Translations under genes and position numbers: made by a program
The notes under the pieces: model-generated
The model's input: only the letters and a program-made list of their open reading frames with translations
Told to the model about the DNA's origin: nothing
Databases searched by the model: none
Part shown: piece by piece, positions 97 through 32,471 of the stretch
Position numbering within the stretch: the first letter of the stretch is position 1
How the letters are laid out: the number at the start of each line of letters is the position of its first letter
Origin: Erysipelotrichaceae bacterium
GTDB lineage: Bacteria > Bacillota_I > Bacilli_A > Erysipelotrichales > Erysipelotrichaceae
NCBI GenBank assembly: GCA_009773735.1
Contig: WSYG01000003.1
Location: 1-54,781 of the forward strand
Length of the DNA: 54,781 nt
Direction of reading: 5' to 3'

Positions 97-249
97 GACC
101 ATACAAAATGTAAAAGCCGGGAAACAATGGGAAAGGAATGGCTAGAATGTTCTTGAAAAATCGGCTTTTGAAGGATTGGTAAAGCCCTAACTCTCATCTC
201 ATGTCCTCCGCCATAGTGAACAAAGCTCTGATAGATTCAGAGCTTTTTT
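97..249 (+). repeat. Att-like site A: arm motif, tRNA-end-like core, hairpin
   Basis: The core TCTCATGTCCTCCGCCA lies at 197-213 and reads like the 3' end of a tRNA or tmRNA gene, including CCA. A GACCATAC motif lies 100 bases upstream (97-104). A hairpin with stem AAAGCTCTG and a T-run follows at 222-249. The same core recurs at 2444, 5325 and 21500, and in diverged form at 24443. No tRNA body precedes it. The likely meaning is an attachment-site remnant of a tyrosine-recombinase element. Bases 1-96 hold nothing I recognise. Confidence 0.55.
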
Positions 250-381: not shown

Positions 382-837
382 TTAATCGATTTTGTTGACA
401 TAATCAAGAAAGTAATTTACATCAGCTTTTTGAACTTGATAGAGTTTGTATTTGTTTTCATTTTGATCGAATAAAACCAAAGAGGAAATGTAAACACTCT
501 CACCTTCGATCAGGATATATATTTCTGTTAAAGGTAATGAAGTCCCGTTGAACCTAATCTGATAAGTGAAAGTTTTCGGTCCTCCCATTAGATCACCAGC
601 TTCTCTTTTCTTTTCGACACTAAATGAATTGTTTATGATTCTGGTCAACTTCACTATGTCGTCAACGTTGACAATGTTGCTTCTATGTTTTGGTAAAGAA
701 CTATAATAAATTGGAAGATACTCAAAAATTGCTATTTCAGAAATAACGACAGATTTGCTGAATACATTATAGAGTTTCTGTGACGAACAAGATGTCATCA
801 ATACTACTGTGATAAAGGCCATCATTATTCTTTTCAT
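382..837 (-). CDS. Small lipoprotein, BlaI-type operator upstream
   Basis: No family recognised. The protein is about 151 residues. The ATG at 837 is chosen because GGAG lies six bases before it and a lipoprotein signal follows directly (MKRIMMAF..., lipobox ending TSC). A longer reading to 903 would run through the promoter. The mature part is a small soluble domain, presumably anchored on the outer face of the membrane. Its promoter has the same layout as the blaI-like promoter at 2206-2234, including an almost identical palindrome in the spacer, so it is probably a target of the neighbouring repressor. It follows the blaR1-like gene on the same strand, but with its own promoter. Confidence 0.75.
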   Translation of the reverse strand: MKRIMMAFITVVLMTSCSSQKLYNVFSKSVVISEIAIFEYLPIYYSSLPKHRSNIVNVDDIVKLTRIINNSFSVEKKREAGDLMGGPKTFTYQIRFNGTSLPLTEIYILIEGESVYISSLVLFDQNENKYKLYQVQKADVNYFLDYVNKID

Positions 838-874
838 GTAGATCTCCGTACGAAATATTACTATTTCTATAATT

Positions 875-903
875 ATCGTACTATTATAATAGTATATTGT
901 CAA
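875..903 (-). promoter_or_regulatory. Promoter with BlaI-type operator for the lipoprotein gene
   Basis: Read leftward, -35 TTGACA (898-903), a 17-base spacer and -10 TACGAT (875-880). The spacer contains a perfect 16-base palindrome, TACTATTATAATAGTA (879-894). The promoter at 2206-2234 has the same geometry and a near-identical palindrome, which suggests one repressor for both. Confidence 0.7.
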
Positions 904-910
904 ATTGAAT

Positions 911-1837
911 TTACAAATTTGCTAAAAGAACAAAATAAGATACAAATATTAGGATGCATACTGCCCAAAATGTATACATTATGCTAGGTTTATAATTTAA
1001 CTGAGTCTTAATCCGACGGAACAATGGATGATCTGAAAATCCAGAACCTAGTTGGTGTCCAACATCTTGATAAAGAAAAACCACTGTTTCAAAATACTTC
1101 TTTTGGTTTTGGTTTCCAATCCAGTCAATTGCTTTTCGATCTGCTTCAATTTCCATATCCTCCATGAAAAGTTTAAAACATATCCAAACCAAAGGATTAA
1201 ACCAGTGAATTGAACAAACAATCAACCCTAGAAGTCTTTTGGGATTATCGAAATTAGCCCAATGAGCTTTCTCGTGTTGAATGACAGCCTCTATATAATC
1301 GTTATTGAACTCTTTGGGTAAAAGCACTACTGGTTTGAATAAACCAAACAGGAATGGACTTGCTACTTTACTATTTTCATATACATTTAAACCACTTAAT
1401 ATACCAAGATACTTAGAATGCTTGATTAATTTTCGTAAATTTAATGTTGATATGACATATGAGCCTAAAATGCCAATTGTTCCTGCGATCCATAGAAGTG
1501 ACACAATTTTAAATATCACTAGAATCAGATTAGACTTGAATGTCAGCGGGTGATAATCCAGTACCTGACTAATCACATTTGAAAAGTAAAACGGATTTAG
1601 CCCTTGAGTAGAAGTGATATTGATTCCTAACAGCTTATAAAAACTGATTATACTGAATGAAGTCACATATGATGCTGGAATTAACAATCTCACAGCAAGT
1701 ACAAACCATAACAAGTTATTGATGATTGGATTGTAGCGACTAAACTTGCGATAGAGCAGAATTAAAACAGCAACGAGGCTGCTTATTAGAGAAATATTGA
1801 TTGTCCAATAACTCCATTCAACCAACATGACTAACAC
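911..1837 (-). CDS. BlaR1-like M56 membrane metalloprotease without sensor domain
   Basis: Integral-membrane peptidase of family M56, the protease part of BlaR1/MecR1 antirepressors. Several membrane segments are visible in the first 130 residues. The zinc motif HEKAH is at 188-192 and the distal ligand region EIEADRKA near 229-236. One more membrane helix ends the protein at residue 308. BlaR1 and MecR1 are usually close to 600 residues, with a C-terminal penicillin-binding sensor domain that is absent here. The start is GTG, with AAGGA seven bases upstream. The blaI-like gene lies immediately upstream, so the pair is one operon. The presumed role is to cleave or inactivate that repressor after an envelope signal; the signal is unknown. 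Confidence 0.85.
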   Translation of the reverse strand: MLVMLVEWSYWTINISLISSLVAVLILLYRKFSRYNPIINNLLWFVLAVRLLIPASYVTSFSIISFYKLLGINITSTQGLNPFYFSNVISQVLDYHPLTFKSNLILVIFKIVSLLWIAGTIGILGSYVISTLNLRKLIKHSKYLGILSGLNVYENSKVASPFLFGLFKPVVLLPKEFNNDYIEAVIQHEKAHWANFDNPKRLLGLIVCSIHWFNPLVWICFKLFMEDMEIEADRKAIDWIGNQNQKKYFETVVFLYQDVGHQLGSGFSDHPLFRRIKTQLNYKPSIMYTFWAVCILIFVSYFVLLANL

Positions 1838-1840
1838 TAA

Positions 1841-2194
1841 TTAATCCTTCGAGTCTCTAATAATATTGAGGATTTTATCTTTGTCCTCTTTACTTAATTT
1901 TTGATTGTTTACAAAATGAGAAAAGAAAGTGGCTGCTGAACCCTTATAAAGCCGATCGATCAGAGACTGAGTTGCATCCAATTGTTCTTTATCTCTGAAA
2001 ACCATTGCTGAGCAAAAAAACTTCGGATCTGTTCTTTTAATATATTGCTTTTCAATTAACTTTTTAATGACCGTATAGGTTGTGTTCTTATTCCACCCAT
2101 AGTGTTCCATCGCCTTCTTAGCAAGCTCGGACGCATAGGAGTCCCCAATTGACCAAAGTAATTCCATGACTTTCAATTCGCTTTCATAGAGCAT
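1841..2194 (-). CDS. BlaI/MecI/CopY-family winged-helix repressor
   Basis: A 117-residue repressor with the BlaI layout: an N-terminal winged helix (LKVMELLW, then WNKNTTYTVIKKLIEK as the recognition region) and a helical dimerisation tail. The family binds TACN-type palindromes and is cleaved after signalling by a BlaR1-type protease. ATG at 2194 is preferred over GTG at 2203, because AGGTGA sits about six bases upstream of the ATG. The promoter just upstream carries a TACTATC/GATAGTA palindrome, so autorepression is likely. No beta-lactamase or PBP gene is nearby. The visible candidate target is the lipoprotein gene at 382-837. Confidence 0.88.
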   Translation of the reverse strand: MLYESELKVMELLWSIGDSYASELAKKAMEHYGWNKNTTYTVIKKLIEKQYIKRTDPKFFCSAMVFRDKEQLDATQSLIDRLYKGSAATFFSHFVNNQKLSKEDKDKILNIIRDSKD

Positions 2195-2205
2195 CGTGTT
2201 CACCT

Positions 2206-2234
2206 ATATCTATACTATCACGATAGTATATTAA
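2206..2234 (-). promoter_or_regulatory. Promoter with BlaI-type operator for blaI-blaR1
   Basis: Read leftward, -35 TTGTTA, a 17-base spacer and -10 TATAGA. The spacer holds TACTATC-GT-GATAGTA (inverted repeat at 2213-2228). The spacer begins ATATACTAT and ends ATAG, as it does at the lipoprotein promoter at 875-903. The transcript leader would be very short. Confidence 0.7.
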
Positions 2235-2443
2235 CAACAAGAGAAACCTCAGATATAAAGATATTTAGTGACCAATTAATAATATTCTTTATATCGATTG
2301 AAGTATAGTTTAAAATTTCCTGTCTAAAAATTAAGTTTAAATGGACGAATAATCAGAAAGATCTAGAAAGAATTAGAAATCAAAACCCTTATAGAATAAG
2401 GAAAAAGAAGAGATGGAAAGGTTAAGAAACCATTTAGATCCTC

Positions 2444-2490
2444 TCTCATGTCCTCCGCCACAGTGATTAAAGCCCTTATAGAAAAAGGAC
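2444..2490 (+). repeat. Att-like site B core and hairpin
   Basis: Core TCTCATGTCCTCCGCCA at 2444-2460, identical to site A. The preceding 100 bases contain AGAAA-rich repeats (CAGAAAGAT, TAGAAAGAA, TTAGAAAT) like those before sites C and D. A weaker hairpin follows (AAAGCCCTT paired with AAGGACTTT, about 2468-2492). GACCATAC occurs 53 bases after the core, the same spacing as at site D. Interpreted as an attachment-site remnant. Confidence 0.5.
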
Positions 2491-6018: not shown

Positions 6019-6909
6019 CTATTTTTTAGAAACGTTTAACTGTTCCAATAATATCCCGACATTGCTTGGCCGATCCGCAACCAAGGCTCCAGCCTTCGTC
6101 AACGCTTCGATTTTATCTTCCACAGCGCCTTTACCACCTGTGATGATCGCGCCGGCATGACCCATCTTCTGTCCTTTGGGAGCCGTTCTGCCACCGAGAA
6201 ATGCGACTAACGGTTTGGTAAAAATCCCTTTTTCCATCGCATCCGCAACCTCTTCTTCCATCGTCCCGCCTAACTCGCCGATGATGACCACGGCTTCGGT
6301 TTGTTCATCCTGCTGATAATATGGTAGCATTTCCGAAAATCTGGTTGCGGGAACCGGATCTCCACCTACGCCGATAAGCGTCGAAACGCCGTATCCTCGT
6401 TTTACGATCATTGCAGTTACTTCGTTGGTCAATGAACCGCTGCGTGTCATGACACCGATATTGCCGCGTTTATATACGCGTTGGATCCAATAGGGGAAAC
6501 TGCCCATCATCGCTTCTTCCGGCGATATGACTCCGGAGGTGTTTCCGCCGATGACCAGTGCATTATGCTCGAGTGCTGCATGGCGTATAGCAACCATATC
6601 AAAAAGCGGTATGCCATCAGCCATCGTAACGATCTTCTTGATTCCGTTGGCAAGAGCTTCAAATACGGCGTCTTTCGTGAGTTTCGGGGGTACGAAAATC
6701 ATGGATGCATCGACTACATGATTTCTTAATGCCCGCTCAACCGAATGGTAAACCGGTATATCATGGATGGTTTGACCTTCTTTTGCAGGGGTAACACCAC
6801 AGATGACCTGGGTCCCCAAATCAATCATGTGCTTTGTCCAAAAGCTACCCTCTGAACCGGTGATTCCTTGAACTAAAACGCGTGTATTTCGATCGATGAA
6901 AATACTCAT
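6019..6909 (-). CDS. ADP-forming acyl-CoA ligase alpha subunit (sulfoacetate-CoA ligase)
   Basis: SucD homolog of normal size (296 residues). The N-terminal CoA-binding Rossmann domain carries VQGITGSEG (13-21). The ligase domain carries the phospho-histidine in GHAGAIITGGKG (H251). In the succinyl-CoA synthetase family this subunit cleaves the acyl-CoA thioester via acyl phosphate and phosphohistidine. Here, paired with the SucC-like gene and directly downstream of an acylating aldehyde dehydrogenase, the inferred reaction is sulfoacetyl-CoA + ADP + Pi to sulfoacetate + CoA + ATP. It starts in a four-base ATGA overlap with the beta subunit and is the last gene of the operon. It corresponds to one half of the ligase named SqwKL; I am unsure which letter applies. 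Confidence 0.88.
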   Translation of the reverse strand: MSIFIDRNTRVLVQGITGSEGSFWTKHMIDLGTQVICGVTPAKEGQTIHDIPVYHSVERALRNHVVDASMIFVPPKLTKDAVFEALANGIKKIVTMADGIPLFDMVAIRHAALEHNALVIGGNTSGVISPEEAMMGSFPYWIQRVYKRGNIGVMTRSGSLTNEVTAMIVKRGYGVSTLIGVGGDPVPATRFSEMLPYYQQDEQTEAVVIIGELGGTMEEEVADAMEKGIFTKPLVAFLGGRTAPKGQKMGHAGAIITGGKGAVEDKIEALTKAGALVADRPSNVGILLEQLNVSKK

Positions 6910-8030
6910 ATCTTCGTCTCCTTCGCTAAGGCAACCGCCAAGCGAACCGCTTCTTCCGTATCAAAAAGTGGATTCAATCCGGCTTTTCGCAGAGTTTCGA
7001 CAGCTTCAACTTCATTGGTTCCACGGATACAAGTCACGATTGGACGATCCGGTTTTAATTTACTGATGGCTTCAACGATGCCTTGTGCCATAACATCGGC
7101 ACGGGCGATCGTTCCAAATGTCACAATCAAGATGACTTTCGATGGAACTTTTAAACAGATTTCCATGGCTTTCATCGCTTTTTTATAGTGAGGTCCGCCA
7201 AATTCCAGATAATTCGCAATCGTTCCACCTTCATAGTGAACTAAGTCGTAAACGGTCGTGGTCAATCCAGCTCCTGCGCACATCAAACTGATGTCGCCAT
7301 CAAACTGAATAAACGGTATGCCTTCTTCCGCCGCTAAGCGCTCTGCTTCGTTTTCAATATCCCCCAGCGGTATGGAAATGTCTTCATGTCGAAACATGGA
7401 GTTGTCATCAATCGAACACTTCCCATCCCCGGCAACCAACTCATTTGATTTGGTTATAAAAAGTGGATTGATTTCCAATAACTCACAATCATACTGAACA
7501 AACAGACGATACAGTTTAAGCAGTAATTGTGTAAATTTCTTTGCTGTTTCAGGATCAAATCCACATTCATAAGCGATGTGGTTGGCTTGATATGCTTGTA
7601 ACCCGAGGTTCATATCGATTTTTGTCTGAAGGATCTTATGTGGCTGTTCAATGGCCAACGTTTCAATATCGACACCGCCGGCAGCGCTGACGATGGATAG
7701 GGCTGATCCACTGAGTGGATCAATCGTAAATGAAGCATAGACTTCATGGGCAATATCTACGGCTTCTTCGATGAGCAGGGATGATATTTTTTGAGGCAGG
7801 GCAAACAGTCGGGTGACTTCTTCCATCCCTTTACCCTCATTTTTTACAAACTGAATCAATCCGGCTTTGCCACGTCCGCCACTCAAAACCTGAGACTTGA
7901 TAACACAGGGAAACCCGATTTGAACAAACGCTTCAGACGCTTGATCGACACGATGAATCAACTGACTTTTCGGAATGGCGATACCCGCAGTATTAAACAA
8001 GTCTTTTACTTGATATTCAAAAAGTTTCAT
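6906..8030 (-). CDS. ADP-forming acyl-CoA ligase beta subunit (sulfoacetate-CoA ligase)
   Basis: SucC homolog (374 residues). The ATP-grasp N-terminal half carries VIKSQVLSGGRGKAG and the metal/ATP segment ELLEINPLF. The C-terminal CoA-ligase half carries GAGLTTTVYDLVHYEGG. It should bind ADP and accept the phosphate from H251 of the alpha subunit, giving the pathway its substrate-level phosphorylation. The start overlaps the stop of the dehydrogenase gene by one base (TGATG) and AGGA lies upstream. Succinate or another acid cannot be excluded from sequence alone. The sulfonate assignment rests on the operon. Confidence 0.88.
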   Translation of the reverse strand: MKLFEYQVKDLFNTAGIAIPKSQLIHRVDQASEAFVQIGFPCVIKSQVLSGGRGKAGLIQFVKNEGKGMEEVTRLFALPQKISSLLIEEAVDIAHEVYASFTIDPLSGSALSIVSAAGGVDIETLAIEQPHKILQTKIDMNLGLQAYQANHIAYECGFDPETAKKFTQLLLKLYRLFVQYDCELLEINPLFITKSNELVAGDGKCSIDDNSMFRHEDISIPLGDIENEAERLAAEEGIPFIQFDGDISLMCAGAGLTTTVYDLVHYEGGTIANYLEFGGPHYKKAMKAMEICLKVPSKVILIVTFGTIARADVMAQGIVEAISKLKPDRPIVTCIRGTNEVEAVETLRKAGLNPLFDTEEAVRLAVALAKETKI

Positions 8031-9439
8031 CAGCGATCCTTCTTCCCGCTGGCGAAATAGGCTCCAAATATTTCTTCATCACTCGGACGGACTGGCGGAA
8101 AGAATTCGGAAACCCAGGTCGTGTTGATGAAATGTTTGTACGTGATATTTTCCGAGGTGATGTTTCCGCCCCAACTGCCACATCCTAAGGATACGGTCGA
8201 TGGCATGCCGTTAAAGAATGCACCACCATTCCCTGCGGCTTGCGCCTGATTGACAAGCACCCGGCTGCTACGGATTTTTGATCCGATATGCTTAACATAA
8301 TCATCGTTGAATGTGTGTATTCCACAGGAATGTCCGGTACCGTAATTATCGGTTAGTCTTTCGAGAATGCGATAACCTTCTTCAAAGGTTGCGTACTTAA
8401 AGATCGTCAATACAGGGGACAGTTTTTCTTGAGAGAAAAAATCGGATTCGATATCTTCTCTACCTTCAACGAGCAAAACTTTCACAGAATTGTTCACCGT
8501 CATCATGGCTCCTTGAGCAATGGACTGTGCGGACTGAGCAATGATTTTAGGGTTGATTGAGCGATATCCTTTATCGTTTAAGGGCCACATATGCATCGAC
8601 AACTGTTCGCGCATGTCTTCGGAAACAAGGTAGGCACCCTGTGAAATCAACTGCTCAATCATTTGATCATAAATCGACTCATGAATAATGATGGAATTTT
8701 CACTTGAACACGATGTCGCATGATCAAATGCTTTACTGCTCATGATTTTCGTGGCAGCGTCTCTAACATTGGCATCTTCGGCGACGATGGATACTGAATT
8801 ACCGGGTCCGACACCATAGGCCGGTTTACCGGATGAGTATGCGGCTTTAACCATCGCTCCACCTCCGGTCGCAAGTACGACATCGACTTGTTTCATGAGT
8901 TCTTCTGTGACATCGATGGATGGTTCATCAATGACTTGAATGAGATCTTCCGGAGCATTGACCTTGCGAAGTCCGTCTCTCATAAATTGCACGGCCATGG
9001 CCGTCGCTTTTTTGGATCTCGGATGCGGCGCAAAGATAACGGCGTTTCTGCCTTTTAAAATCGTGATACCATTGCTGGCAGGTGTCGCTGTCGGATTGGT
9101 TACCGGAGTCAATGCGCCGACAACGCCAACCGGTTTGGCGAATTTCCTGATTTTCTTTTCCTCGTCCACTTCAATGCAACCCACGGACTTGGCATGTTGG
9201 ACATCTTTTAAAACACCGAGCACTTTATTTTTGTGTTTAGTGATTTTGTCTTGAACATTTCCCATCTTCGTTTCTTCGACCGCAAGTTTAGCCAGTATTT
9301 CAATGTTGTGATCATTGTATACTTCCCAACCGATCGCTACACAAACTTCATCGATTTGCTCTTGGGTGTAAAATTGGATTTGTTTCTGTGCAGCTTTCGC
9401 CCTTTTTACGTAGGACGACACATACTCTTTCGAACTCAT
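8030..9439 (-). CDS. sqwD: CoA-acylating sulfoacetaldehyde dehydrogenase
   Basis: Acylating aldehyde dehydrogenase of the EutE/AdhE-N type (469 residues). The N-terminal coenzyme-binding region has PVGVVGALTPVTNP (103-116) and a glycine-rich TGGGAMVKAAYSSGKPAYGVG. The catalytic cysteine is C244 in HATSCSSENS. Inferred reaction: sulfoacetaldehyde + CoA + NAD(P)+ to sulfoacetyl-CoA. AAAGGAG precedes the start. The following SucC/SucD pair would convert the product to sulfoacetate. EutE-like enzymes of ethanolamine or propanediol microcompartments are the main alternative, but no shell genes or lyases are present. The symbol follows my memory of the Acholeplasma variant pathway. Confidence 0.85.
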   Translation of the reverse strand: MSSKEYVSSYVKRAKAAQKQIQFYTQEQIDEVCVAIGWEVYNDHNIEILAKLAVEETKMGNVQDKITKHKNKVLGVLKDVQHAKSVGCIEVDEEKKIRKFAKPVGVVGALTPVTNPTATPASNGITILKGRNAVIFAPHPRSKKATAMAVQFMRDGLRKVNAPEDLIQVIDEPSIDVTEELMKQVDVVLATGGGAMVKAAYSSGKPAYGVGPGNSVSIVAEDANVRDAATKIMSSKAFDHATSCSSENSIIIHESIYDQMIEQLISQGAYLVSEDMREQLSMHMWPLNDKGYRSINPKIIAQSAQSIAQGAMMTVNNSVKVLLVEGREDIESDFFSQEKLSPVLTIFKYATFEEGYRILERLTDNYGTGHSCGIHTFNDDYVKHIGSKIRSSRVLVNQAQAAGNGGAFFNGMPSTVSLGCGSWGGNITSENITYKHFINTTWVSEFFPPVRPSDEEIFGAYFASGKKDR

Positions 9440-9449
9440 ATTTTCTCCT

Positions 9450-10691
9450 TTATTTTATAATGCCTAGCTGGTGAATCAGTCCTAAGAAAGTGGACACGAA
9501 GGCTAAGGCAATAAATGCTACGATATACATTTTTTTGAAAAGCTTCTTCTCATCTACTCCTGTGGGTAAGCTGCCCAAAGCTAGGGCTCCCATGACGGAT
9601 AGCGGACTCATGGTGGTCATATGCGAGGCGACCGCTATGGTCATCGTCAGGACTGCCGGACTCACCGCAAAGTTTAAACTTTCTGATAAGGCGACTGTTG
9701 TGGGTATCAGCGTCGGCATGACCACGCCTACTGCCGAAGCGAAGGTCGCCATGGTTCCGGAAAGAATCGATATGATAAAAACTGCGGTTTGACCATTCGT
9801 TATCTTTGCTAGAAAATCGGTCATCATTTGAATGCCGCCGAGTTCACCGACAACACTGATCAAAACGGCTGCTCCGCAAATTTGCAGAATGGTTGTCCAC
9901 GGAACTTGTTGAACGGCTTGTTGCTGATTGCCGGCTTTGAGAAAGAAGAGTCCGACTGCGAGGGTAAATCCAGCGAAACCGACATGGACTTTCCCGAAGA
10001 TGACCCATAAAATCAAGACCAGAATACTAAGCAATGTAAGTTTTTGCTCATAGGTGAAGGGTAAAGGTGGTGAAACTTCCGTTTTCTGACCATTCATCCT
10101 ATAGCCTTTCATCGCTATAAAAAAGAGCGTTGAAAAGATGATGATGCTGATCATATTTAGCAGGTAAATTGATATTCCGAGTTCTCCCACATTGTTTAAT
10201 CGAGCCAGTTCCAAGGCGACGATCCCATTGGGGGCAATGGGAGACAAGCCGCCGGCGATGGATCCTTGAATGATTAGGACGCTCATCAACAGTAAGGACA
10301 TATTGGATTGATAGGCAATGGCTAACCCAATGGGTAAAAGCAGGGCTGCTGCTGAAATATTCCCGGGTCCGATGGAAGCAAGTCCCAATGACAGTACAAA
10401 GAAAATAATCTGGATCTTGATTTTACTGCCCTTGCTGCGATATATGATCATGGTTGACAGGTTTTCAAGGGTTCCGTTGATTTTCGCAATACTGAAAAAT
10501 AATGTGACTCCTACCGTGGTGAAGAATAGGTTTAACGGCCAAAATCCAATGATCGTATTGGGACTTAATCCACCTAGTGTCGTCCCTAGGAAGAAAGCAA
10601 ATACTAGTGCAATAAAACCTACGTTAATATTCTTGGCTATGCCAATGATAATTGCGACTAAAATTGACAGTAGCGATACTATTTCAATCAT
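9450..10691 (-). CDS. Membrane carrier, candidate sulfoacetate exporter
   Basis: Polytopic protein of 413 residues with about ten to twelve hydrophobic segments. It resembles the ion-transporter superfamily of anion carriers (MatC/CitM-like), with the re-entrant-type motifs SIGPGNISAAALLLPIG and GVVMPTLIPT in the two halves. It sits between the RpiB-like gene and the sulfoacetaldehyde dehydrogenase gene, with 12 bases to the former. The pathway ends in an anion that must leave the cell and no other exporter is encoded, so sulfoacetate export is the best guess. Uptake of an organic acid is possible. The ribosome site (AGAAGAA) is weak, suggesting low expression. Confidence 0.7.
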   Translation of the reverse strand: MIEIVSLLSILVAIIIGIAKNINVGFIALVFAFFLGTTLGGLSPNTIIGFWPLNLFFTTVGVTLFFSIAKINGTLENLSTMIIYRSKGSKIKIQIIFFVLSLGLASIGPGNISAAALLLPIGLAIAYQSNMSLLLMSVLIIQGSIAGGLSPIAPNGIVALELARLNNVGELGISIYLLNMISIIIFSTLFFIAMKGYRMNGQKTEVSPPLPFTYEQKLTLLSILVLILWVIFGKVHVGFAGFTLAVGLFFLKAGNQQQAVQQVPWTTILQICGAAVLISVVGELGGIQMMTDFLAKITNGQTAVFIISILSGTMATFASAVGVVMPTLIPTTVALSESLNFAVSPAVLTMTIAVASHMTTMSPLSVMGALALGSLPTGVDEKKLFKKMYIVAFIALAFVSTFLGLIHQLGIIK

Positions 10692-10703
10692 ACATATTTC
10701 TTC

Positions 10704-11186
10704 TTACTGACGATGAAAGCTTTCTTTCTCAATTTTGGCTACAGCTTCCTTGGCTTTAACTAAGTTTTTAGCCCTCCATTCTTCCAGATTTTGGGTAAAT
10801 TCGGTATTTAAGAAGGTCTTGGTCATTTCGACACCCATGATCGGCGCAATGATCCATCCACCCATACATAGAATATTGGCGTCATTGATGGCACGGCATT
10901 TCTCGGCTGCATATACGGATTCGCAGGCTGCCCCGAATACACCTTCATGCTTGTTGGCGACGATGGACATGCCCATGCCGGTTCCGCAAATCAAGATGCC
11001 TCTTGTGTATTCTTTGGATTGAATTTTCAGTGCGCCTTTTAACGCAACATCGAAGAAAGGCGCAGGTTTCTCTTCATCGGTAGTGCCGATGTCCTCGACT
11101 TCATAGGCTTCGCCAAGTAAATATTGTTTAATGGCTTCTTTCAATGCAAACCCGGATTTGTCCGAGCCGATAAAGATTTTTTTCAT
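10704..11186 (-). CDS. sqwI: RpiB/LacAB-family isomerase, 4-deoxy-4-sulfoerythrose isomerase
   Basis: RpiB-fold protein of 160 residues. The catalytic cysteine motif GILICGTGMGMSI is intact (C68 by my count). Two positions usually His in RpiB differ: the first motif is GSDKSG rather than GSDHAG, and the INDAN segment has Ile where HND is usual. The C-terminal phosphate-binding Arg pair is also not evident (WRAKNLVKAK). These changes fit a substrate whose terminal group is a sulfonate. Inferred reaction: 4-deoxy-4-sulfoerythrose to 4-deoxy-4-sulfoerythrulose, which lets the transketolase act a second time. It starts right after the transketolase C-terminal subunit gene. Confidence 0.8.
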   Translation of the reverse strand: MKKIFIGSDKSGFALKEAIKQYLLGEAYEVEDIGTTDEEKPAPFFDVALKGALKIQSKEYTRGILICGTGMGMSIVANKHEGVFGAACESVYAAEKCRAINDANILCMGGWIIAPIMGVEMTKTFLNTEFTQNLEEWRAKNLVKAKEAVAKIEKESFHRQ

Positions 11187-11187
11187 A

Positions 11188-12135
11188 TTACAACCCTTTT
11201 CTTTCTAGAACACGATGCACAGCGTCGACGATGTTATGTGCTTTGAGCCCGAATTTCTCCATTAAGAAGTCTTTCTTGCCGACTTCGCCAAAATGATCTT
11301 TGGTTCCGACGCGTTCCATAACGACCGGATAATTTTCAACAAGAACTTCAGCGACCGCACTGCCCAACCCATTGATGATGTTATGGTTTTCGGCGGTAAC
11401 AATTGCCCGGGTCTTCTTCGCCTCAGAAATAATCGCTTCTCTATCGATCGGTTTAACTGTGTGAATATTGACGACGCTCGCGGATATGCCTTCTTCGGCT
11501 AGGATTTTGCGTGCTTCTAGTGCTTCTACCACCATAATCCCCGTCGCAAAGATACTGACATCGGTTCCTTCTTCAAGTTTGATCGCTTTACCTAAGGTAA
11601 ATTGTGTTCCATCTGCGAAGACTGATGGAAATTCCTGGCGAAGAAGTCGGATATATACCGGACCGTAGTGTTCGATAATCTGATCAAACATGCCGGCTAG
11701 CTGTACGCCATCGACCGGTTCAAAGATGGTCATGGTCGGAATGGTTCTCATGATTCCGACGTCTTCAAATGACATGTGCGTGCCACCATTTAAGGTAGCC
11801 ATGATTCCTGGATCTGATCCCACCATTTTGACATTGAGTTGAGCATAGGCGACCGATAGCATGACTTGGTCAAAACAGCGGCGTGTAGCAAACGGTGTGA
11901 AGGTGTGCGTGAATGGCAGTTTCCCCATGTTGCTTAACCCGGCTGCGACGCCGATCATATTGGCTTCAGCAACACCGACATTGATGGTTCTTTCCGGGAA
12001 TACATCCGCAAAGCCAGTGGTTTTCGCTGCTTTCATTAAGTCAGCTTCAACGATGACCAGATTCGGATGTTTTTTTGCGGCTTCAATAAGTAAATCTACG
12101 TAAATATCTCTTAATTGTCGATCGTGTAATTTCAT
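11188..12135 (-). CDS. Transketolase C-terminal subunit (sulfo-transketolase)
   Basis: Pyrimidine-binding and C-terminal domains of a split transketolase (315 residues). The thiamine-activating glutamate is E57 in INVGVAEANM. The phenylalanine-rich FTHTFTPFATRR segment follows, and the transketolase C-terminal domain begins near residue 190. With the N-terminal subunit (overlap ATGA) it should move two-carbon units from 6-deoxy-6-sulfofructose, then from sulfoerythrulose, to glyceraldehyde 3-phosphate. That releases sulfoerythrose and then sulfoacetaldehyde, with xylulose 5-phosphate as co-product. This corresponds to one half of SqwGH. A housekeeping or DXS-type role is less likely given the operon. 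Confidence 0.85.
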   Translation of the reverse strand: MKLHDRQLRDIYVDLLIEAAKKHPNLVIVEADLMKAAKTTGFADVFPERTINVGVAEANMIGVAAGLSNMGKLPFTHTFTPFATRRCFDQVMLSVAYAQLNVKMVGSDPGIMATLNGGTHMSFEDVGIMRTIPTMTIFEPVDGVQLAGMFDQIIEHYGPVYIRLLRQEFPSVFADGTQFTLGKAIKLEEGTDVSIFATGIMVVEALEARKILAEEGISASVVNIHTVKPIDREAIISEAKKTRAIVTAENHNIINGLGSAVAEVLVENYPVVMERVGTKDHFGEVGKKDFLMEKFGLKAHNIVDAVHRVLERKGL

Positions 12136-12950
12136 TTTGTTTCCAACCTCTCAATCGCTTCGTTTGCTTGTTCCATGGTTACAGGCATATTGTGTGAGCC
12201 GGCTTGTCCTTCACAGAAGAAAGCACCTTTTCCTTTAATGGTGTTCAGTATGATCATCGAAGGTTTCCCTTTGACTTCTTTTGCATGATCGATCGCTTCC
12301 GAAATGGCTAGCACATCATGCCCGTCAATGACTTGTACGTGCCAGTTGAATGCTTCCCATTTCTTGTCGAGCGGGGCAACATCATTGATATCACTAACGG
12401 CACCGTCGATTTGTAATTTGTTATAGTCAGTAAAGGCGATCAATGTGTCCAGTCCGCGACTTCCGGCGAACATAGCGGATTCCCAAATCTGACCTTCTTG
12501 GCTTTCGCCATCACCGATGATTGCGTAAACTGTTAATAGGGACCCATCCAACTGAGCCGCAGTGGCCATACCTACCGCAGCGGAGAATCCTTGTCCTAAG
12601 GATCCGGTGGTCATATCAACGCCGATGGTCTTGTTTTTATCGGTATGACTCGGTAAGGTGGTGTTTGACTGATTAAGTGTCAATAGCAGTGACTTGTCAA
12701 AGTACCCCTTGATTGCCAATGCTGCATATACGGCCGGTCCACCGTGGCCTTTAGATAAAACAAATCGATCACGGCTCAATAAGCCCGGATTCTTTGGGTC
12801 AATGTTCATTTTTTCGAAATATAGTACAGCTAAAACATCGGCGATTGACAGGCTTCCGCCGATATGACCGACGCCCAATGTACCGATGCACCGCAAGGTT
12901 TCTTGGCGGATTTCCTTCGCCTTTTCTTCTAAATACGCTCTTTTTTCCAT
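12132..12950 (-). CDS. Transketolase N-terminal subunit (sulfo-transketolase)
   Basis: Thiamine-diphosphate-binding half of a split transketolase (272 residues). GVGHIGGSLSIADVL and the SKGHGGPAVYAAL loop are typical. The ThDP/metal motif runs from GDGESQEGQIWE (146-157) to the NKLQIDG segment. AAGGAG precedes the start and the C-terminal subunit overlaps the end. Split transketolases occur in many anaerobes for pentose metabolism. Here the pairing with an RpiB-like isomerase and a sulfoquinovosidase in one transcript points to SF/SEu cleavage (SqwGH). Confidence 0.85.
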   Translation of the reverse strand: MEKRAYLEEKAKEIRQETLRCIGTLGVGHIGGSLSIADVLAVLYFEKMNIDPKNPGLLSRDRFVLSKGHGGPAVYAALAIKGYFDKSLLLTLNQSNTTLPSHTDKNKTIGVDMTTGSLGQGFSAAVGMATAAQLDGSLLTVYAIIGDGESQEGQIWESAMFAGSRGLDTLIAFTDYNKLQIDGAVSDINDVAPLDKKWEAFNWHVQVIDGHDVLAISEAIDHAKEVKGKPSMIILNTIKGKGAFFCEGQAGSHNMPVTMEQANEAIERLETK

Positions 12951-12961
12951 CTTTTTTCTCC

Positions 12962-14302
12962 TTAGTATTTTACTACTTCACAAGCGAATAATTGAGCCAA
13001 TATTTCTAGTTCTTCCTTGATATCCCCATAAACAACGACAAAGTGTGGTTCCCATCCATCTTGTACCATGTTCGTGATCAGCAGATTCACTTTAGGTTCT
13101 ACTTCAACAACGACACTGGTTCCTAAGAATTGTTGGGGCTTGTCCAATACTTTTCCATCGAGGATTAAAAATCTGAATGTCCCATCCGGTTTACGACCGA
13201 TTCGGAATATTGTGGCTTCTTTACATTCTTTAAGTCCAAACTCCATGGTTGGTCCGATTTTTCGATTGGGATGAACACCCACGGTTGCGCCGGTATCTTT
13301 TCTTGCCAATCCGCAGGCAGCAGTTCCACAATGCCAGAACGTAATGGTGTTTTCTTCTTCATCGATAGAGACGGGATCACCTAGATAGGTTGGCGATTTC
13401 GAGAGTTGTTGTCCGATATACATACTCAATGCGCCATAAGCATCGGCTTCACAGGCAGCCGCAACGTTTTGATCGTTGAGCATGGCCAGCACACTGCATA
13501 CCGGGGTTCCGTAATCCGTAAAGAAGTCCGGCCAGCAGCGCGAAGCAATGGCTTTGATTTGGTTTTTATCGATATAGTCTTGATAAGCTTTGTACAGTTT
13601 GACAAAGTCGACACGGTTTTTGGTTACGGTTTTATCTAATCCGACCATCCGCCGACCAATTTCATTTTCTTCATTTTTTGCATCTTCTATCTTCATTTCC
13701 TGTGCAATCTTGGTCAGTTCTCGTGATTCAATGGCGAGAAGATTGACGCCGAAGGTCGAGGCCATTTCGAGATCTAAAGCACGGCCAAAGCCGAATCCCT
13801 GCGGGGTGTGTCCAATCATCAGAAGATTAGCGTTTTTCATTTCGTGTTTCAGCTTCGTAGCACGAATAATTTTTTTCAGTCTGTTTTGAATGCTATCTTC
13901 GCTGGGTGATCCATAAATGTAGAAAATTTTGTCTGTTCTCATTGCTTTGTAGGCATACCCTGCTGAGAATGCTCCGGTTAATGAGTTAAGTCTGAGTCTT
14001 CCGCCATCAATGACAGGTTCACGTAGCGTCCACAACAATACTGGTGCAGATATACGTTTCAATACTTCTGTTGCATAAGCAGAGTTGGCAAAGGTTACAT
14101 TCTGTAAAATCACTAAGTCGGGATTCTTCCCATCAATATACTTAAGTAGCGTTTCGATAGACAATAGCATTTCACTGCTAACGGTAATCGTTTCGTCAAT
14201 GCTCTTGAGCAAACTGATTGAATCCTCATATGCTTTTTGGGCGGATTCTAAGTGAAATGTCGAAACACCAATTGGTACATATAGACATTCAAACGGTTTC
14301 AT
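12962..14302 (-). CDS. L-fucose-isomerase-like protein, candidate sulfoquinovose isomerase
   Basis: Protein of 446 residues of the L-fucose/L-arabinose isomerase-like superfamily. The N-terminal domain contains DLVILQNVTFAN and LWTLREP. A middle region follows with RVDFVKLYKAYQDYI and ASRCWPDFFTDYGTPVC. The C-terminal domain carries FWHCGTAACGLAR. The family isomerises aldoses to ketoses with a bound metal. Here the inferred step is sulfoquinovose to 6-deoxy-6-sulfofructose, the entry reaction before transketolase. AGGA lies five bases before the start, and a hairpin separates it from the binding-protein gene upstream. Confidence 0.78.
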   Translation of the reverse strand: MKPFECLYVPIGVSTFHLESAQKAYEDSISLLKSIDETITVSSEMLLSIETLLKYIDGKNPDLVILQNVTFANSAYATEVLKRISAPVLLWTLREPVIDGGRLRLNSLTGAFSAGYAYKAMRTDKIFYIYGSPSEDSIQNRLKKIIRATKLKHEMKNANLLMIGHTPQGFGFGRALDLEMASTFGVNLLAIESRELTKIAQEMKIEDAKNEENEIGRRMVGLDKTVTKNRVDFVKLYKAYQDYIDKNQIKAIASRCWPDFFTDYGTPVCSVLAMLNDQNVAAACEADAYGALSMYIGQQLSKSPTYLGDPVSIDEEENTITFWHCGTAACGLARKDTGATVGVHPNRKIGPTMEFGLKECKEATIFRIGRKPDGTFRFLILDGKVLDKPQQFLGTSVVVEVEPKVNLLITNMVQDGWEPHFVVVYGDIKEELEILAQLFACEVVKY

Positions 14303-14327
14303 ATGTGTCCTGCTTTCTTAAGAATTA

Positions 14328-14353
14328 GGGTGCTACAAACTTTTATAGCACCC
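14328..14353 (-). promoter_or_regulatory. Intercistronic hairpin after the binding-protein gene
   Basis: GGGTGCTA pairs perfectly with TAGCACCC across a ten-base loop, with no T-run after it. It lies between the solute-binding-protein and isomerase genes. Such stems often stabilise the 3' end of binding-protein mRNA, or attenuate, so that this gene is expressed above its neighbours. Confidence 0.6.
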
Positions 14354-14362
14354 TGTATTGTA

Positions 14363-15571
14363 TTATTTCTTAGCGTCTTTAAGTTTGGTTTCTAGTTCTT
14401 TTAATGCTTCCAACGGCGTTGCTTCTTTAGCAACAGCTTTACGGATGGCTTCGTTGATCATCGGATACATTCCCGGAACCATGACTTGAGTTAACCAGTC
14501 TTGAACATAGGATGCATCGGTTGCGGCGATTTCATCAAGGAATATAGCATACTCATCTTTGAATTTGCCATAGTCAACTTCTGCGCCTAAACGTGGTGTC
14601 AAGTAAGGAACTCCACCGGTATATCTGTCATGGTTTTCGCCTTTGGCTAACCAAGCAATGAATTTCTTGGCTGCTTTCGGAGCGTTGGAGTCCATAAACG
14701 CTGCGATGGACTTACCGCCAAGAATGGTTGCGCGGTTTGTTTCTTTCGGCATTGGGACGACAGTCCAGTCAAATGTCAAATTCTGATAACTGCTGACATT
14801 CCAGTTGCCTGACATATGGAAGCCGTATGCGCCTGTTCTAAACAGAGCGGCGGCTGCCGAACCGGCATAAACGGCATCGTCAACTAAACCACTTTCATAG
14901 AAACCGACGAGTCTGGTCAATGCTTTGACAGCTGCGGTTCCAGTTAAATTACTGGCAGTGTACGGTGTACTCCAGATTTTTGTTCCGTGTTGATAAACCA
15001 TCGGGAAAAAACGGTGTGCTTGAGGATCGAAGACGCCTGGGAAGTTAACATCGGCACCGACACCGGCACGAAGTTTATTTACTTCGGTCTCGAATTGGTC
15101 CCATGTCCAGACGGCATCGCCTGGTTTCGGATAGTTTACACCATATTTTTTCATCAAATCAACATTGATGAATAATCCGTTGGCCGTAATGTCCATAGGT
15201 AGTGAAATAACTTCTTTTGCATCATTATAGAATAAGTTGGTGAATCCAGCACTGTCATAGACACCTTTTAAACTCTGAATTTTTCCTTTGAAGTTATTCA
15301 GATGTCCTTCGGTGACGCGTGCGAGTGCAGGAGCTTCTCCGCCACTGATCATGGTTGCTAAACGTGCTTCATAATCAGCGTAAGGAATTACGACTAATTC
15401 AATCTTAACACCTGTTTTAGTTTCGTATTCTGTAAGCAATGTTTGCATGACCGCACCTTCGGTGCCGTCGCTCCACCACAGCATTTGCAGTTCTTTAGGT
15501 TCTTGCTTAGCGCAAGCACTAAAGCCGGAGATAACTAATAAGATTAATAGTAGACTAAGTATTCTTTTCAT
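14363..15571 (-). CDS. ABC sugar-importer lipoprotein binding protein
   Basis: Family-1 extracellular solute-binding lipoprotein (402 residues): charged n-region, hydrophobic stretch, and a lipobox ending FSAC near residue 20. The mature part begins with the usual ELQMLWWSDG strand, and an SGGEAPALARV segment follows. GGGAGGG precedes the start. The two permease genes immediately upstream complete an importer lacking its ATPase. The substrate is inferred to be sulfoquinovose or its glycosides (sulfoquinovosyl glycerol) from the operon. Sequence alone says only oligosaccharide or sugar. Confidence 0.88.
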   Translation of the reverse strand: MKRILSLLLILLVISGFSACAKQEPKELQMLWWSDGTEGAVMQTLLTEYETKTGVKIELVVIPYADYEARLATMISGGEAPALARVTEGHLNNFKGKIQSLKGVYDSAGFTNLFYNDAKEVISLPMDITANGLFINVDLMKKYGVNYPKPGDAVWTWDQFETEVNKLRAGVGADVNFPGVFDPQAHRFFPMVYQHGTKIWSTPYTASNLTGTAAVKALTRLVGFYESGLVDDAVYAGSAAAALFRTGAYGFHMSGNWNVSSYQNLTFDWTVVPMPKETNRATILGGKSIAAFMDSNAPKAAKKFIAWLAKGENHDRYTGGVPYLTPRLGAEVDYGKFKDEYAIFLDEIAATDASYVQDWLTQVMVPGMYPMINEAIRKAVAKEATPLEALKELETKLKDAKK

Positions 15572-15616
15572 AGACCCTCCCTTTCTTTATATTAATGTTA
15601 ATTAATACCTGTGTTA

Positions 15617-16432
15617 TTAACCCTTCATTCCGCTATCAACCGTTCCTTGAACGAATTGACGTTGGAATATCAAGAAGACGATGAGCATCGGAATCATGGC
15701 TAATGCACTCATCGCAATGACAGAGTTGTAGTCGATACCGAATTCACCCGAGAAATTAGCGATTGCCAATTGAAGGGTATATTTTTTTGGCGAGTTGATC
15801 GCAATCAGTGGCCAGACGTAGTCATTCCAGCGCCACATAAATGAGAAGATGGCGAGGGTGGCGATGGCTGGTTTGGCGTTGGGTAAGATGATGTTCCAGA
15901 AGATCCGCCATTCCGATGCGCCGTCGATGCGGGCCGCTTGAATGACTTCATCCGGAATGGTCAACAAGTATTGTCTCATTAAGAATATGCCGGTCGGTGT
16001 TGCGGCCGGGGGTATGATCAAGGCCCATAAAGAGTTGTACAGTCCGAAGAACCGTAAAACTGAGAAGATGGGGACCATGATGACTTCCAGTGGCAACATG
16101 ATGGTTGACAGTATCAATAACATGATGACATTCTCACCTTTGAAGCGGAATTTGGACAATGCGTATCCGGCCATGGTGTTAATGATGACCGCGATGATCG
16201 TGCTGGATATCGCCACTAAGAAGGTATTGAAGATATACAATGAGAAGTTGCCTTTGCTTAGTGCGATGGTGAAGTTTTCCAGGGTCCAATTTTTGGGTAT
16301 AAACGTCGGATTGGCGGAGAACAGCTCGGCTGATGGTTTAAAGGCGGAGAAGATGATGTAGATGACTGGGAGTATGAAGATTAAAGCAACCACGATCGAG
16401 ATGACATAGGTTAAGAGGCTAGCCTTTTTCAT
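15617..16432 (-). CDS. ABC sugar-importer permease, MalG type
   Basis: Inner-membrane permease of the carbohydrate-uptake-1 family (271 residues, about six membrane helices). The EAA loop IQAARIDGASEWRIFWNIILP docks the ATPase. The C-terminus is the typical FQRQFVQGTVDSGMKG. It overlaps the MalF-type gene by four bases and is translated from GAGGTGA. It works with the adjacent MalF-like permease and lipoprotein to import the operon's sugar. No ATP-binding protein is encoded in the operon, so a shared MsmK/MsiK-like ATPase elsewhere is expected. Confidence 0.9.
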   Translation of the reverse strand: MKKASLLTYVISIVVALIFILPVIYIIFSAFKPSAELFSANPTFIPKNWTLENFTIALSKGNFSLYIFNTFLVAISSTIIAVIINTMAGYALSKFRFKGENVIMLLILSTIMLPLEVIMVPIFSVLRFFGLYNSLWALIIPPAATPTGIFLMRQYLLTIPDEVIQAARIDGASEWRIFWNIILPNAKPAIATLAIFSFMWRWNDYVWPLIAINSPKKYTLQLAIANFSGEFGIDYNSVIAMSALAMIPMLIVFLIFQRQFVQGTVDSGMKG

Positions 16433-17331
16433 ACATTCTCACCTCTTTTTGATAAAAAGAAGTTTGCTGCCGTGAAGATGGTGACGATCAATAACACGAC
16501 CATGGACATTGCACTGGCAGATCCGACTTGATATTCTTTAAATGCTACTTCATAAACGTATTGAACTGTGAAATAAGTAGCACGGTGCGGCCCGCCGCCG
16601 GTCAAGGTTGTGACCAGTGGATATACTTTGAAGATTTCCATGGTCGTCAAGATAAATACCATCAGACGTGCCGGCCGAATGGCCGGATAGGTGATGTACA
16701 TGAATTTTTGTAACTTGCTGGCTCCGTCCATATCGGCGGCTTCGTAGAGGGGTTCCGGAATGCTAAGCAGGGCGGCCATAAAGATAATCATGTAGTAACC
16801 CGCTCTTGACCATACGAGTGCGAAGACGACGGACCACCAGGCAAACGTCGGGTCTGTGAGTGTCTTTAAAGATTGAATGCCGAGAGACTTTGCGAATGCA
16901 TTGAAGATACTGAAATTCCCGGCCAATATCCAGTTCCACATAATACCGATTACAATGGCGGATATCATGACCGGCCAGTAATAGACGGCGCGAAACAGTC
17001 CTCTGGCTTTGAGCGGCTGGACGATGAGTATGGCCATTGTCAAGGATGCAAGGTACATGATCGGAACCACGACGATGACAAGCTTTATTGTATTCACAAA
17101 GGCTTTGATAAAGTATTCGTTGTCGATCAGTTTGATGTAATTTTTCAATCCGATGAAATTGAAGCCGTCGAAGGTAAACAGGGTAACATCGGTGAATGAA
17201 TAATACAGTCCGATGAGCGCTGGCAGTATGATGAAAATTGAAAATATGAGCAAATTGGGTGCGAGGAACATATAGGGAACAATTTTTTGTTTGAATTCCA
17301 CGCCACGCTCTTTTTTCTTCATTTTTGCCAT
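16429..17331 (-). CDS. ABC sugar-importer permease, MalF type
   Basis: Permease of the carbohydrate-uptake-1 family (300 residues). A cytoplasmic Lys-rich start is followed by about six helices. The EAA loop EPLYEAADMDGASKLQKF is present, as is the hallmark TGGGPHRATYFTVQYVYEVAF near the C-terminus. AAAGGAGG precedes the start, and only three bases separate it from the sulfoquinovosidase gene. It forms the heterodimeric channel with the MalG-type neighbour. Confidence 0.9.
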   Translation of the reverse strand: MAKMKKKERGVEFKQKIVPYMFLAPNLLIFSIFIILPALIGLYYSFTDVTLFTFDGFNFIGLKNYIKLIDNEYFIKAFVNTIKLVIVVVPIMYLASLTMAILIVQPLKARGLFRAVYYWPVMISAIVIGIMWNWILAGNFSIFNAFAKSLGIQSLKTLTDPTFAWWSVVFALVWSRAGYYMIIFMAALLSIPEPLYEAADMDGASKLQKFMYITYPAIRPARLMVFILTTMEIFKVYPLVTTLTGGGPHRATYFTVQYVYEVAFKEYQVGSASAMSMVVLLIVTIFTAANFFLSKRGENV

Positions 17332-17334
17332 CGT

Positions 17335-19341
17335 TTAGCCTCCTTTCCCATACTTCTTATAAATATCTTCGAATAAAGTTCGATAGGTTGATTGTTTTCG
17401 GTAAAATACCGGCGGATATCCGATGGGTGCATCAACCGTGATCTCTCCACCATCAAATTCTGATCCTGTCCATAAGTGAATCCAGGCATCAGATGGTAGA
17501 TAACATGTCTGAGAAAGTTGAGACGCTCTGACGATCGGTTTTACATACAAATCCTGTCCAAAAAGGTATTCGTACTGTAGATCAAACACTTTCTCGTCTT
17601 CTGGATAATGCAAGAATAATGGTCGTTGCAACGGATAGCCAAGTTGTGTCGCTTCTTCAACCAAACTCAAAAAATACGGTTTCAGGTCGACTTTAATATT
17701 CGAGCATCGAGCCATGTGTTTCATGGTATCCACATCGTTGTAAAATTGGAAGTTCTGACTCGGACGATTTCCTTCGTGGCTTCTCATGTAAGAGGAGAAT
17801 ATGTTCATTTCACACCAGCGGTCAAACAACTCTTTGGTTCGGATGTTTCCGTGTAAGCTGGTATATCCGCCGATATCGCTGTGTGTATAGGGGTTTCCGA
17901 TGATGCCGGTGGATAGTGCGGATGGAATGACGGAGGCAATTCCGTCATGAGTTTCCCAATTGACGCTTTGATCTCCTGCCCACATCGATGTGCAGTACTT
18001 TTGTGAACCAAAGCCACCGGCTCTCATAAAGTAGAAGACTTTCCCCAAATTCCCAGATTCCTTAACGGCTTCGTAATTACACTTCGCCCATAATACCGGC
18101 CAGGCGTTGTGCATGATTTTCGCACTTACGCCGTTATGTAGGACACAGTCGATGGGTAAATATTCCCCAAAGTCTGCCATCCAGCCTTTGATGCCCAAGG
18201 ACAGAATATTCTTTTTAATAACATTTTTATACCACTCGAATCCCAGAGGATTTGTCAAATCGACAATACCGCAATAGAATTCGCCGAAATCTTCGAGATA
18301 GGGATTCCCCTCAACATCAAGGGCAAGATATCCAAACGATTTAGCTTCGTTGAACAGCGTTTCGTTTTCCAGTAAGAATGGGCAGATATAGGTCAGAAAG
18401 GCGATGTTTTCCTTATTTAGCTCAGCGATCTCATCCTTTAAATTGGGGTATAGTTTCTCATTGAGCACCCAGTTCCAGTACAATCGCTTTCCAAAAGTGG
18501 TAAAGCGGTGTCCGACCCAGTCTTGAACCCAAAGGCCGTTGACTTTAATACCATTTTCAAGAGCAAGGTCTTTGTATTTGCGTACGGTTTCCATGCCGCC
18601 TTGAACACCTAGGATGATACCATCGTGTAAGAAGTCAGGCAGCATCGGCGGTCGTCCTGTAAACTCGGTCAGGTCAGTCAAGAGTTCAAGGTAACTATCA
18701 CTAAAATTTAGTGTCAGTTCACAGGGAACTTCCCAAAACATCAATTCATGAAAATCCGGTGATCGAAAATCAAACTCAGCATAGGCTGTCGATTCCACAT
18801 GTAACCAGTATTTCCGGGTAGATACGAAGGTTGGTTCCGGATAATAGGTCGTGTAGTAGTCCCCACCGGCCTTATCCACTTTATCCGCATAGAATGTAGT
18901 CAGTGATGATTTATCGCGTCCAACGCCAGGCTCAGAGGTCCAGAGCGGATATTTTCTGTTTCTTAAGTTGAAGTAGGAGGCTTGTTCTCCACACCCGTAT
19001 ACTTTTTCACTGGCATCTGCTTTCATTCGGATCCAGAAGCGATTGACGTCGGCTTTGTTGCATGAGAATTTCATGGTCAACCGTTGACTCACAATGAGGA
19101 ATTCAACGGTCAGAGACACTCCATGACTTGAGAATACACAACTGTTTTCAATTATCTGTGTTTCTGTCAGTGGAATCCGACTCTCTAATCGGTCTTCGAT
19201 TTGATAGTTGCCACGATAGCTTTCAATTGTTTCATTTCCTCGCCCAACAAATACAAACGGTTGATCATTTGAATGTTCAAGGATGCACTCATCTTTGAAC
19301 ATCACACTCAACCGATCTTTATTCTTTTCAAGTATTAACAT
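17335..19341 (-). CDS. Sulfoquinovosidase, GH31 (YihQ type)
   Basis: Glycoside hydrolase family 31, closely following E. coli YihQ. It releases sulfoquinovose from sulfoquinovosyl glycerol or lipid. Numbering from the longer in-frame ATG at 19353, the nucleophile is D394 (WMADFGEYLP) and the acid/base D461 (WAGDQSVNW). The sulfonate-binding set is Q251, Q277, R290, W293 and Y497. As I recall YihQ numbering (Q262, Q288, R301, W304, D405, D472, Y508), every residue is offset by exactly eleven. The ATG at 19341 is preferred: GGAGG lies five bases before it, whereas the ATG at 19353 has no ribosome site. There is no signal peptide, so hydrolysis is cytoplasmic, after import. Confidence 0.95.
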   Translation of the reverse strand: MLILEKNKDRLSVMFKDECILEHSNDQPFVFVGRGNETIESYRGNYQIEDRLESRIPLTETQIIENSCVFSSHGVSLTVEFLIVSQRLTMKFSCNKADVNRFWIRMKADASEKVYGCGEQASYFNLRNRKYPLWTSEPGVGRDKSSLTTFYADKVDKAGGDYYTTYYPEPTFVSTRKYWLHVESTAYAEFDFRSPDFHELMFWEVPCELTLNFSDSYLELLTDLTEFTGRPPMLPDFLHDGIILGVQGGMETVRKYKDLALENGIKVNGLWVQDWVGHRFTTFGKRLYWNWVLNEKLYPNLKDEIAELNKENIAFLTYICPFLLENETLFNEAKSFGYLALDVEGNPYLEDFGEFYCGIVDLTNPLGFEWYKNVIKKNILSLGIKGWMADFGEYLPIDCVLHNGVSAKIMHNAWPVLWAKCNYEAVKESGNLGKVFYFMRAGGFGSQKYCTSMWAGDQSVNWETHDGIASVIPSALSTGIIGNPYTHSDIGGYTSLHGNIRTKELFDRWCEMNIFSSYMRSHEGNRPSQNFQFYNDVDTMKHMARCSNIKVDLKPYFLSLVEEATQLGYPLQRPLFLHYPEDEKVFDLQYEYLFGQDLYVKPIVRASQLSQTCYLPSDAWIHLWTGSEFDGGEITVDAPIGYPPVFYRKQSTYRTLFEDIYKKYGKGG

Positions 19342-19352
19342 GTCTTCCTCCA

Positions 19353-20400: not shown

Positions 20401-20458
20401 TATGCGCAATATAATAATGAGATTAATTCTTGATTGGTTGTAAATCGATATAAAACAA

Positions 20459-21251: not shown

Positions 21252-21385
21252 ATTATTTTTAAAAAACTCCATTCTTTTCTATATCTCTCAAATAATGGAA
21301 TATGTCCACTTTTGTAGAGTCACAATTTAATAGTTGTATAAGTACAATGATCAATCCGTCCACATCTTTATGCATAGTGTTTATT

Positions 21386-32365: not shown

Positions 32366-32471
32366 AATGGATTGATACAAAAAGATAAGTCTTGCCTAAT
32401 TGGTTTCATAAGAAAACAATGCTAAAATGATGGTGTCAAGATTATTCTTTACTTTATCATTAAGGAGCCAT

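Follow-up and report, generated by a model that had tools for sequence, protein, structure and literature searches.

The 54,781-nucleotide window analysed here, the entire contig WSYG01000003.1 (C54) of the 1.94-Mb, 99% complete assembly GCA_009773735.1 of an Erysipelotrichaceae bacterium, carries a BlaI-family repressor gene, a gene for a sensor-less M56 (BlaR1-like) protease and a lipoprotein gene. Judged from its sequence, the repressor-protease pair is a member of a distinct, widespread and little-studied sensor-less M56/BlaI class and not a truncated BlaR1, and we consider it rather probable that the three genes together form an envelope-signalling module of this class.

Gene order and coding sequences

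The genes lie in a row on the minus strand in the order blaI, M56, lipoprotein, with the positions given by the initial annotation (Table 1). The pair comprises the sole M56 gene and the sole BlaI-family gene of the whole genome, and a search for M56 in seven other genomes of the genus found none. The lipoprotein start was set at the ATG at 837; an alternative TTG upstream at 903 is an unlikely start because it falls inside the promoter. The claim that neither a beta-lactamase nor a PBP gene is near agrees with the result of family searches, which gave no match among the window proteins scanned (a subset of the ORFs).

Table 1. Features of the locus, copies of the tRNA-Ser(GGA) 3' end and loci of the polytopic neighbour family
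Feature	Coordinates or loci	Strand	Remarks
tRNA-Ser(GGA) 3' end copy, left cassette edge	197..219	+	
Lipoprotein, 151 aa	382..837	-	lipobox MTSC; relatives in genome G002 and genus g75; model pLDDT 81.8
Second operator of the lipoprotein promoter, ATTATAGAAATAGT	860..873	-	one mismatch; 20 bases downstream of the first
Lipoprotein promoter TTGACA-17-TACGAT	875..903	-	exact operator TACTATTATAATAGTA at 879-894; read from sequence; genome scan
Sensor-less M56 (BlaR1-like) protease, 305 aa	911..1828	-	HEKAH; self-cleavage-like LGSG/F
BlaI-family repressor, 117 aa	1841..2194	-	ATG at 2194 with AGGTG upstream; GTG at 2203 possible
blaI promoter TTGTTA-17-TATAGA	2209..2237	-	exact operator TACTATCACGATAGTA at 2213-2228; read from sequence; genome scan
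tRNA-Ser(GGA) 3' end copy, right cassette edge	2444..2466	+	type C arm upstream
Further copies in the window	5325, 21500, perhaps 24443		5325 degenerate; 24443 a remnant
Copies beyond the window (contigs C8, C50)	L054 8950, 10481, 12349, 19701; L055 677		
Polytopic family downstream of M56	L136, L138, L143-L146, L153, L154, L165		

The M56 protease and the BlaI repressor

The M56 protein was matched to Pfam PF05569 (E 6.5e-30, 104.7 bits against a cut-off of 31) with its HEKAH motif intact, and the chain stops at the last hydrophobic helix, 121 residues after HExxH. The penicillin-binding sensor domain of BlaR1 and MecR1 is missing, as first proposed, and the NCBIfam model blaR1_generic scored 73 bits against a cut-off of 400. 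On alignment, LGSG/F falls on the self-cleavage Ser283/Phe284 of Staphylococcus aureus BlaR1 (PMC9834060); the residues of the BlaR1/MecR1 self-cleavage loop Leu-x-x-x/Phe are present, the cleavage itself being predicted. The repressor was matched to PF03965 (Penicillinase_R; E 9.5e-19, 68.3 bits against a cut-off of 22.6) and could be aligned along its length with MecI and BlaI structures, its SH/FV falling on the cleavage site Asn101/Phe102 of S. aureus BlaI (PMC9834060). Most other class members carry Leu at the cleavage position where the window protein has Phe, indicating that the cleavage site varies across the class.

Because the catalytic and cleavage-site residues are kept, the activated M56, an intact membrane protease, would probably cleave BlaI as BlaR1 does. 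The pair resembles the BlaR1-BlaI systems of S. aureus and Bacillus licheniformis in having an M56 membrane protease beside BlaI, with aligned HExxH, self-cleavage and BlaI-cleavage positions, and differs from them in the lack of a penicillin-binding sensor, in that no beta-lactamase or PBP target was found, in the operator ACTATN4ATAGT and in a lipoprotein placed under its own operator. An intracellular input, with BlaI released by a ligand in the cytoplasm, for instance a muropeptide, and M56 playing a minor or turnover role, would accord with one report, according to which a fragment of peptidoglycan induces the BlaI-controlled resistance of B. licheniformis (PMC3305447), but a bystander protease would not need the protease, self-cleavage-like and BlaI cleavage-site residues that are kept here, and we regard this input as unlikely.

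Operators and promoters

A perfect TACTATN4ATAGTA palindrome lies inside the 17-base spacer between the -35 and -10 elements of both the blaI and the lipoprotein promoter, which bears out the initial claim that one promoter-operator design precedes both genes. Exact copies of this palindrome number two in the genome, both in the window, against 0.077 expected under a first-order Markov model. Four genome sites were found for the looser ACTATN4ATAGT, about what chance would give (1.7 expected); the two outside the window, on contigs C38 and C69, were considered as extra operators and rejected, one lying within xerD and the other having no promoter around it, so that neither is promoter-placed. 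Exact sites alone were taken as informative because one-mismatch sites are fewer genome-wide than those of a reversed control pattern. No second operator was found at the blaI promoter within three mismatches. AT-rich composition is the one point in favour of a chance likeness of the two promoters, which the two exact copies, both in promoter spacers, and the recurrence of the operator in sister loci effectively refute, leaving it a negligible probability.

That the pair controls the lipoprotein, as the initial annotation had proposed, is strongly supported by the class comparison given below and by the operator that both promoters share and that occurs in exact form nowhere else; we consider it very probable that the lipoprotein gene is under BlaI control. 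Given the identity and position of the operators and the published binding of a Clostridium (Acetivibrio) thermocellum BlaI to GACTAT, BlaI dimers would be expected to sit between -35 and -10 of the blaI-M56 and lipoprotein promoters and to repress both. The C. thermocellum protein, BlaI_1845, binds GACTAT repeats in vitro at two inverted-repeat pairs, its operon comprises blaI, blaR1 and two hypothetical genes downstream of the operators, and its authors read the system as a beta-lactam response (PMC8457756). The likeness of that operon to the window locus is drawn on operator and operon genes.

The sensor-less M56/BlaI class

Membership of the class was defined by an M56 tail of 115-125 aa after HExxH, ACTATN4ATAGT at blaI, an exported neighbour and a loop with N, Y and P, all of which the window pair has. 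An initial scan of genome contigs with a single M56 as query returned no matches; a profile search then yielded 80 loci, to which four more were added, the window pair and three short pairs from its family. Sensor-less pairs numbered 34, with M56 proteins ending 116-124 residues past HExxH and mostly from Lachnospiraceae and Oscillospiraceae, and the window pair is not the lone oddity it had seemed when the class was overlooked.

ACTATN4ATAGT was present at the blaI promoter of all 30 short pairs with a readable blaI (27 exact, three with one mismatch) and of none of the 38 fused-M56 pairs whose blaI could be read, and no exact copy occurred in 319 kb of fused loci. An inverted-repeat operator, which BlaI is predicted to bind, is present at the blaI promoter of the window and conserved in the class. 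Many members have two operators 18-36 bases apart, corresponding to the four-protomer arrangement described for BlaI_1845 (PMC8457756). Within the TM2-TM3 loop, which is extracytoplasmic in BlaR1, N, Y and P are kept at at least 95% across 32 short M56 proteins and are not in the fused consensus. Fused M56 proteins with a C-terminal DUF4362 or DUF4825 share the M56 core and the neighbouring BlaI with the window pair, and differ from it in having their extracytoplasmic domain fused and no ACTATN4ATAGT operator.

In trees of both proteins the window grouped with the three short same-family pairs (support 97/95 for M56 and 100/100 for BlaI), a position that is less sure than the support implies because the window branch is long (2.2-2.5). 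In a tree of 105 M56 proteins, in which the window is again a long branch of uncertain exact place, the 32 full-length short ones all fall to the same side of a single branch, and the split into short and fused proteins takes 1 change against 27.6 when shuffled; the branch itself has 67% SH-aLRT support, or 97% with one fused row added.

Exported neighbours of the class

Among the short loci, 30 of 34 have a same-strand ORF with a hydrophobic N-terminus directly after M56, compared with 6 of the 44 fused loci (p 1.7e-11). By eye, these neighbours are mostly lipoproteins, with a polytopic membrane protein instead in about a quarter of the class, and the third genes of the class fall into several unrelated families. 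The polytopic family (YPLYMGI...YPKYIIPYTPI; Table 1) has no Pfam match; many sensor-less blaI-M56 operons include it, either by itself or following the lipoprotein gene.

Two short loci are without a downstream ORF. In Acetivibrio alkalicellulosi (L139, 3922-5560) a convergent lipoprotein gene has its own promoter with two exact BlaI-type operators, and in L140 a lipoprotein gene is divergent from the pair across one shared operator, indicating that the window arrangement, in which the lipoprotein gene carries an operator of its own, is found independently elsewhere. The A. alkalicellulosi locus shares with the window a sensor-less M56, the same operator and a lipoprotein with operators of its own; unlike in the window, its lipoprotein has 475 aa and is convergent with the pair, and the two lipoproteins have no sequence kinship.

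The C-terminal domain of four DUF4362-bearing M56 proteins was compared with the lipoproteins of ten sensor-less operons using hhalign, giving a probability of 95.9% and an E value of 5.5e-9 over 100 columns; a weaker first comparison of the fused domain with the sister lipoproteins had given E 5e-4. This relation points to a common extracytoplasmic domain that is joined to M56 in the fused class and encoded by its own gene in the sensor-less class, and makes a receptor split over two genes plausible. Fused-tail sequences searched against the PDB gave nothing useful.

The window lipoprotein

No homology of the window lipoprotein was found to Pfam, NCBIfam, PDB sequences, fused M56 tails or sister lipoproteins; against the DUF4362-like lipoproteins of the sister operons, hhalign aligned the signal peptides only and hmmsearch gave no link. 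Its relatives in G002 and genus g75 are without an adjacent BlaI or M56. In G002, one relative (L078, 57-700) lies directly downstream of tRNA-Leu(CAA). An earlier structure model built from two sequences was discarded as too poor (pLDDT 49). The model used here (pLDDT 81.8) matched 4q0y, a C. sporogenes protein (Z 8.8), 4r7r, a putative C. perfringens lipoprotein (Z 7.1), 2mct, a R. gnavus protein (Z 7.0), and, weakly, YycH (2fgt, Z 4.9), where values of Z below 8 may reflect merely a common arrangement; the best Foldseek E value was 2.7e-3. YycH is an extracytoplasmic partner of the WalK kinase.

The initial suggestion that sensing perhaps proceeds through the lipoprotein stands in part: indirectly, it gains from the relation between the lipoprotein domain of the ten sister operons and the fused M56 domain, and it is weakened by the window lipoprotein being unrelated in sequence to those sisters, with relatives that occur without BlaI or M56. 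For these last reasons the window lipoprotein may be output only, a BlaI-controlled effector serving for example in envelope protection, with M56 sensing alone via its helices and extracytoplasmic loop. That several unrelated families supply the third genes and that the loop is conserved in the class would fit an effector of this kind, whereas the domain shared by ten sister lipoproteins and the fused M56 C-terminus is as expected for part of a receptor; we take the output-only role to be possible, at clearly less than even confidence. That the window lipoprotein belongs to the signal input, and not just to the output, is close to an even call, falling slightly short of it.

A tRNA-Ser-bounded cassette

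The three genes form one cassette lying exactly between copies of the tRNA-Ser(GGA) 3' end (Table 1), within a tRNA-Ser-bounded array that the initial annotation had missed. The array copies consist of the tRNA-Ser(GGA) 3' end plus a terminator, with upstream sequence in three classes, and the cargo between them comprises blaI-M56-lipoprotein, a GGDEF-HD protein, a sulfosugar cluster, pdxST with ECF transporters, PadR with a membrane protein, and a lipoprotein. The order of the units is provisional because the assembly does not link contigs C8 and C54. An array of this type, carrying different cargo, is present in genome G002, and in G006 the tRNA-Ser gene is directly followed by a relative of window positions 32427-33677, a configuration that resembles an empty site.

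Among the array units examined, none was found to hold an integrase, the tyrosine and serine recombinases of the genome lying elsewhere, and none of the genome's recombinases was identified as a tRNA-Ser(GGA) integrase. The cassette has att borders and no recombinase inside, as in a CIME; excision by a helper is predicted at most. The serine recombinases on C4 (beside tmRNA) and C18 were considered as array helpers, and no link was shown. The serine recombinase gene on C4 (L218, 2448-4354) overlaps the 3' side of the tmRNA gene, an ssrA-type integration site. The array resembles the cis-mobilizable elements and tandem ssrA islands of Dehalococcoides (PMC3146451) in its tandem cargo units, some of them integrase-less, between copies of an RNA-gene 3' end; it differs in using tRNA-Ser(GGA), in its three flanking-arm classes and in that none of the examined units yielded an integrase.

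Two further features of the window were recorded. Inside one array unit, positions 6019-20030 hold a sulfoquinovose cluster of the sulfo-transketolase type (PMC9594981), with a sulfoquinovose isomerase-like gene, a split transketolase, an RpiB-like isomerase, an acylating sulfoacetaldehyde dehydrogenase-like gene, a succinyl-CoA-ligase-like pair, GH31 and an ABC transporter. Positions 20452-21259 hold an insertion sequence remnant in which inverted repeats (20452-20485 and 21225-21259) flank a broken sequence that by eye is transposase-like.

The cassette borders, and the lack of M56/BlaI in the seven congeneric genomes in which M56 was sought, are what would be expected of a decayed beta-lactam receptor, a BlaR1 that had lost its sensor and was carried as a passenger on a mobile cassette. 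However, the sensor-less M56 proteins make up a single class in which length, loop, operator and neighbour are all conserved, both operators in the window are perfect, and the trees, by grouping the short M56 proteins, disfavour truncation or decay; we regard this origin as very improbable.

Proposed mechanism and implications

What is said here of BlaI binding and cleavage, of the signal and of the lipoprotein's role is inference from the sequence. Because there is no C-terminal sensor, input would have to reach M56 by way of its class-specific, extracytoplasmic loop between TM2 and TM3, a partner in trans, or both. Among possible partners the co-regulated lipoprotein is the best candidate, and it would give a split receptor with feedback on its own antenna. 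More generally, we tentatively suggest, with confidence somewhat below even, that there are BlaR1-type receptors split over two genes, in which a sensor-less M56 uses a BlaI-controlled lipoprotein as an exchangeable antenna and the signal is changed by gene swap. In the literature searched, no description of a sensor-less M56 paired with a lipoprotein was found.

With its defining operator, conserved extracytoplasmic loop and constant exported partner, the class makes regulons predictable and bears on the signals to which BlaR1-like proteins lacking a penicillin sensor respond. An exchangeable antenna, should there be one, would explain how one protease-repressor core may serve many signals in gut Clostridia and Erysipelotrichia.
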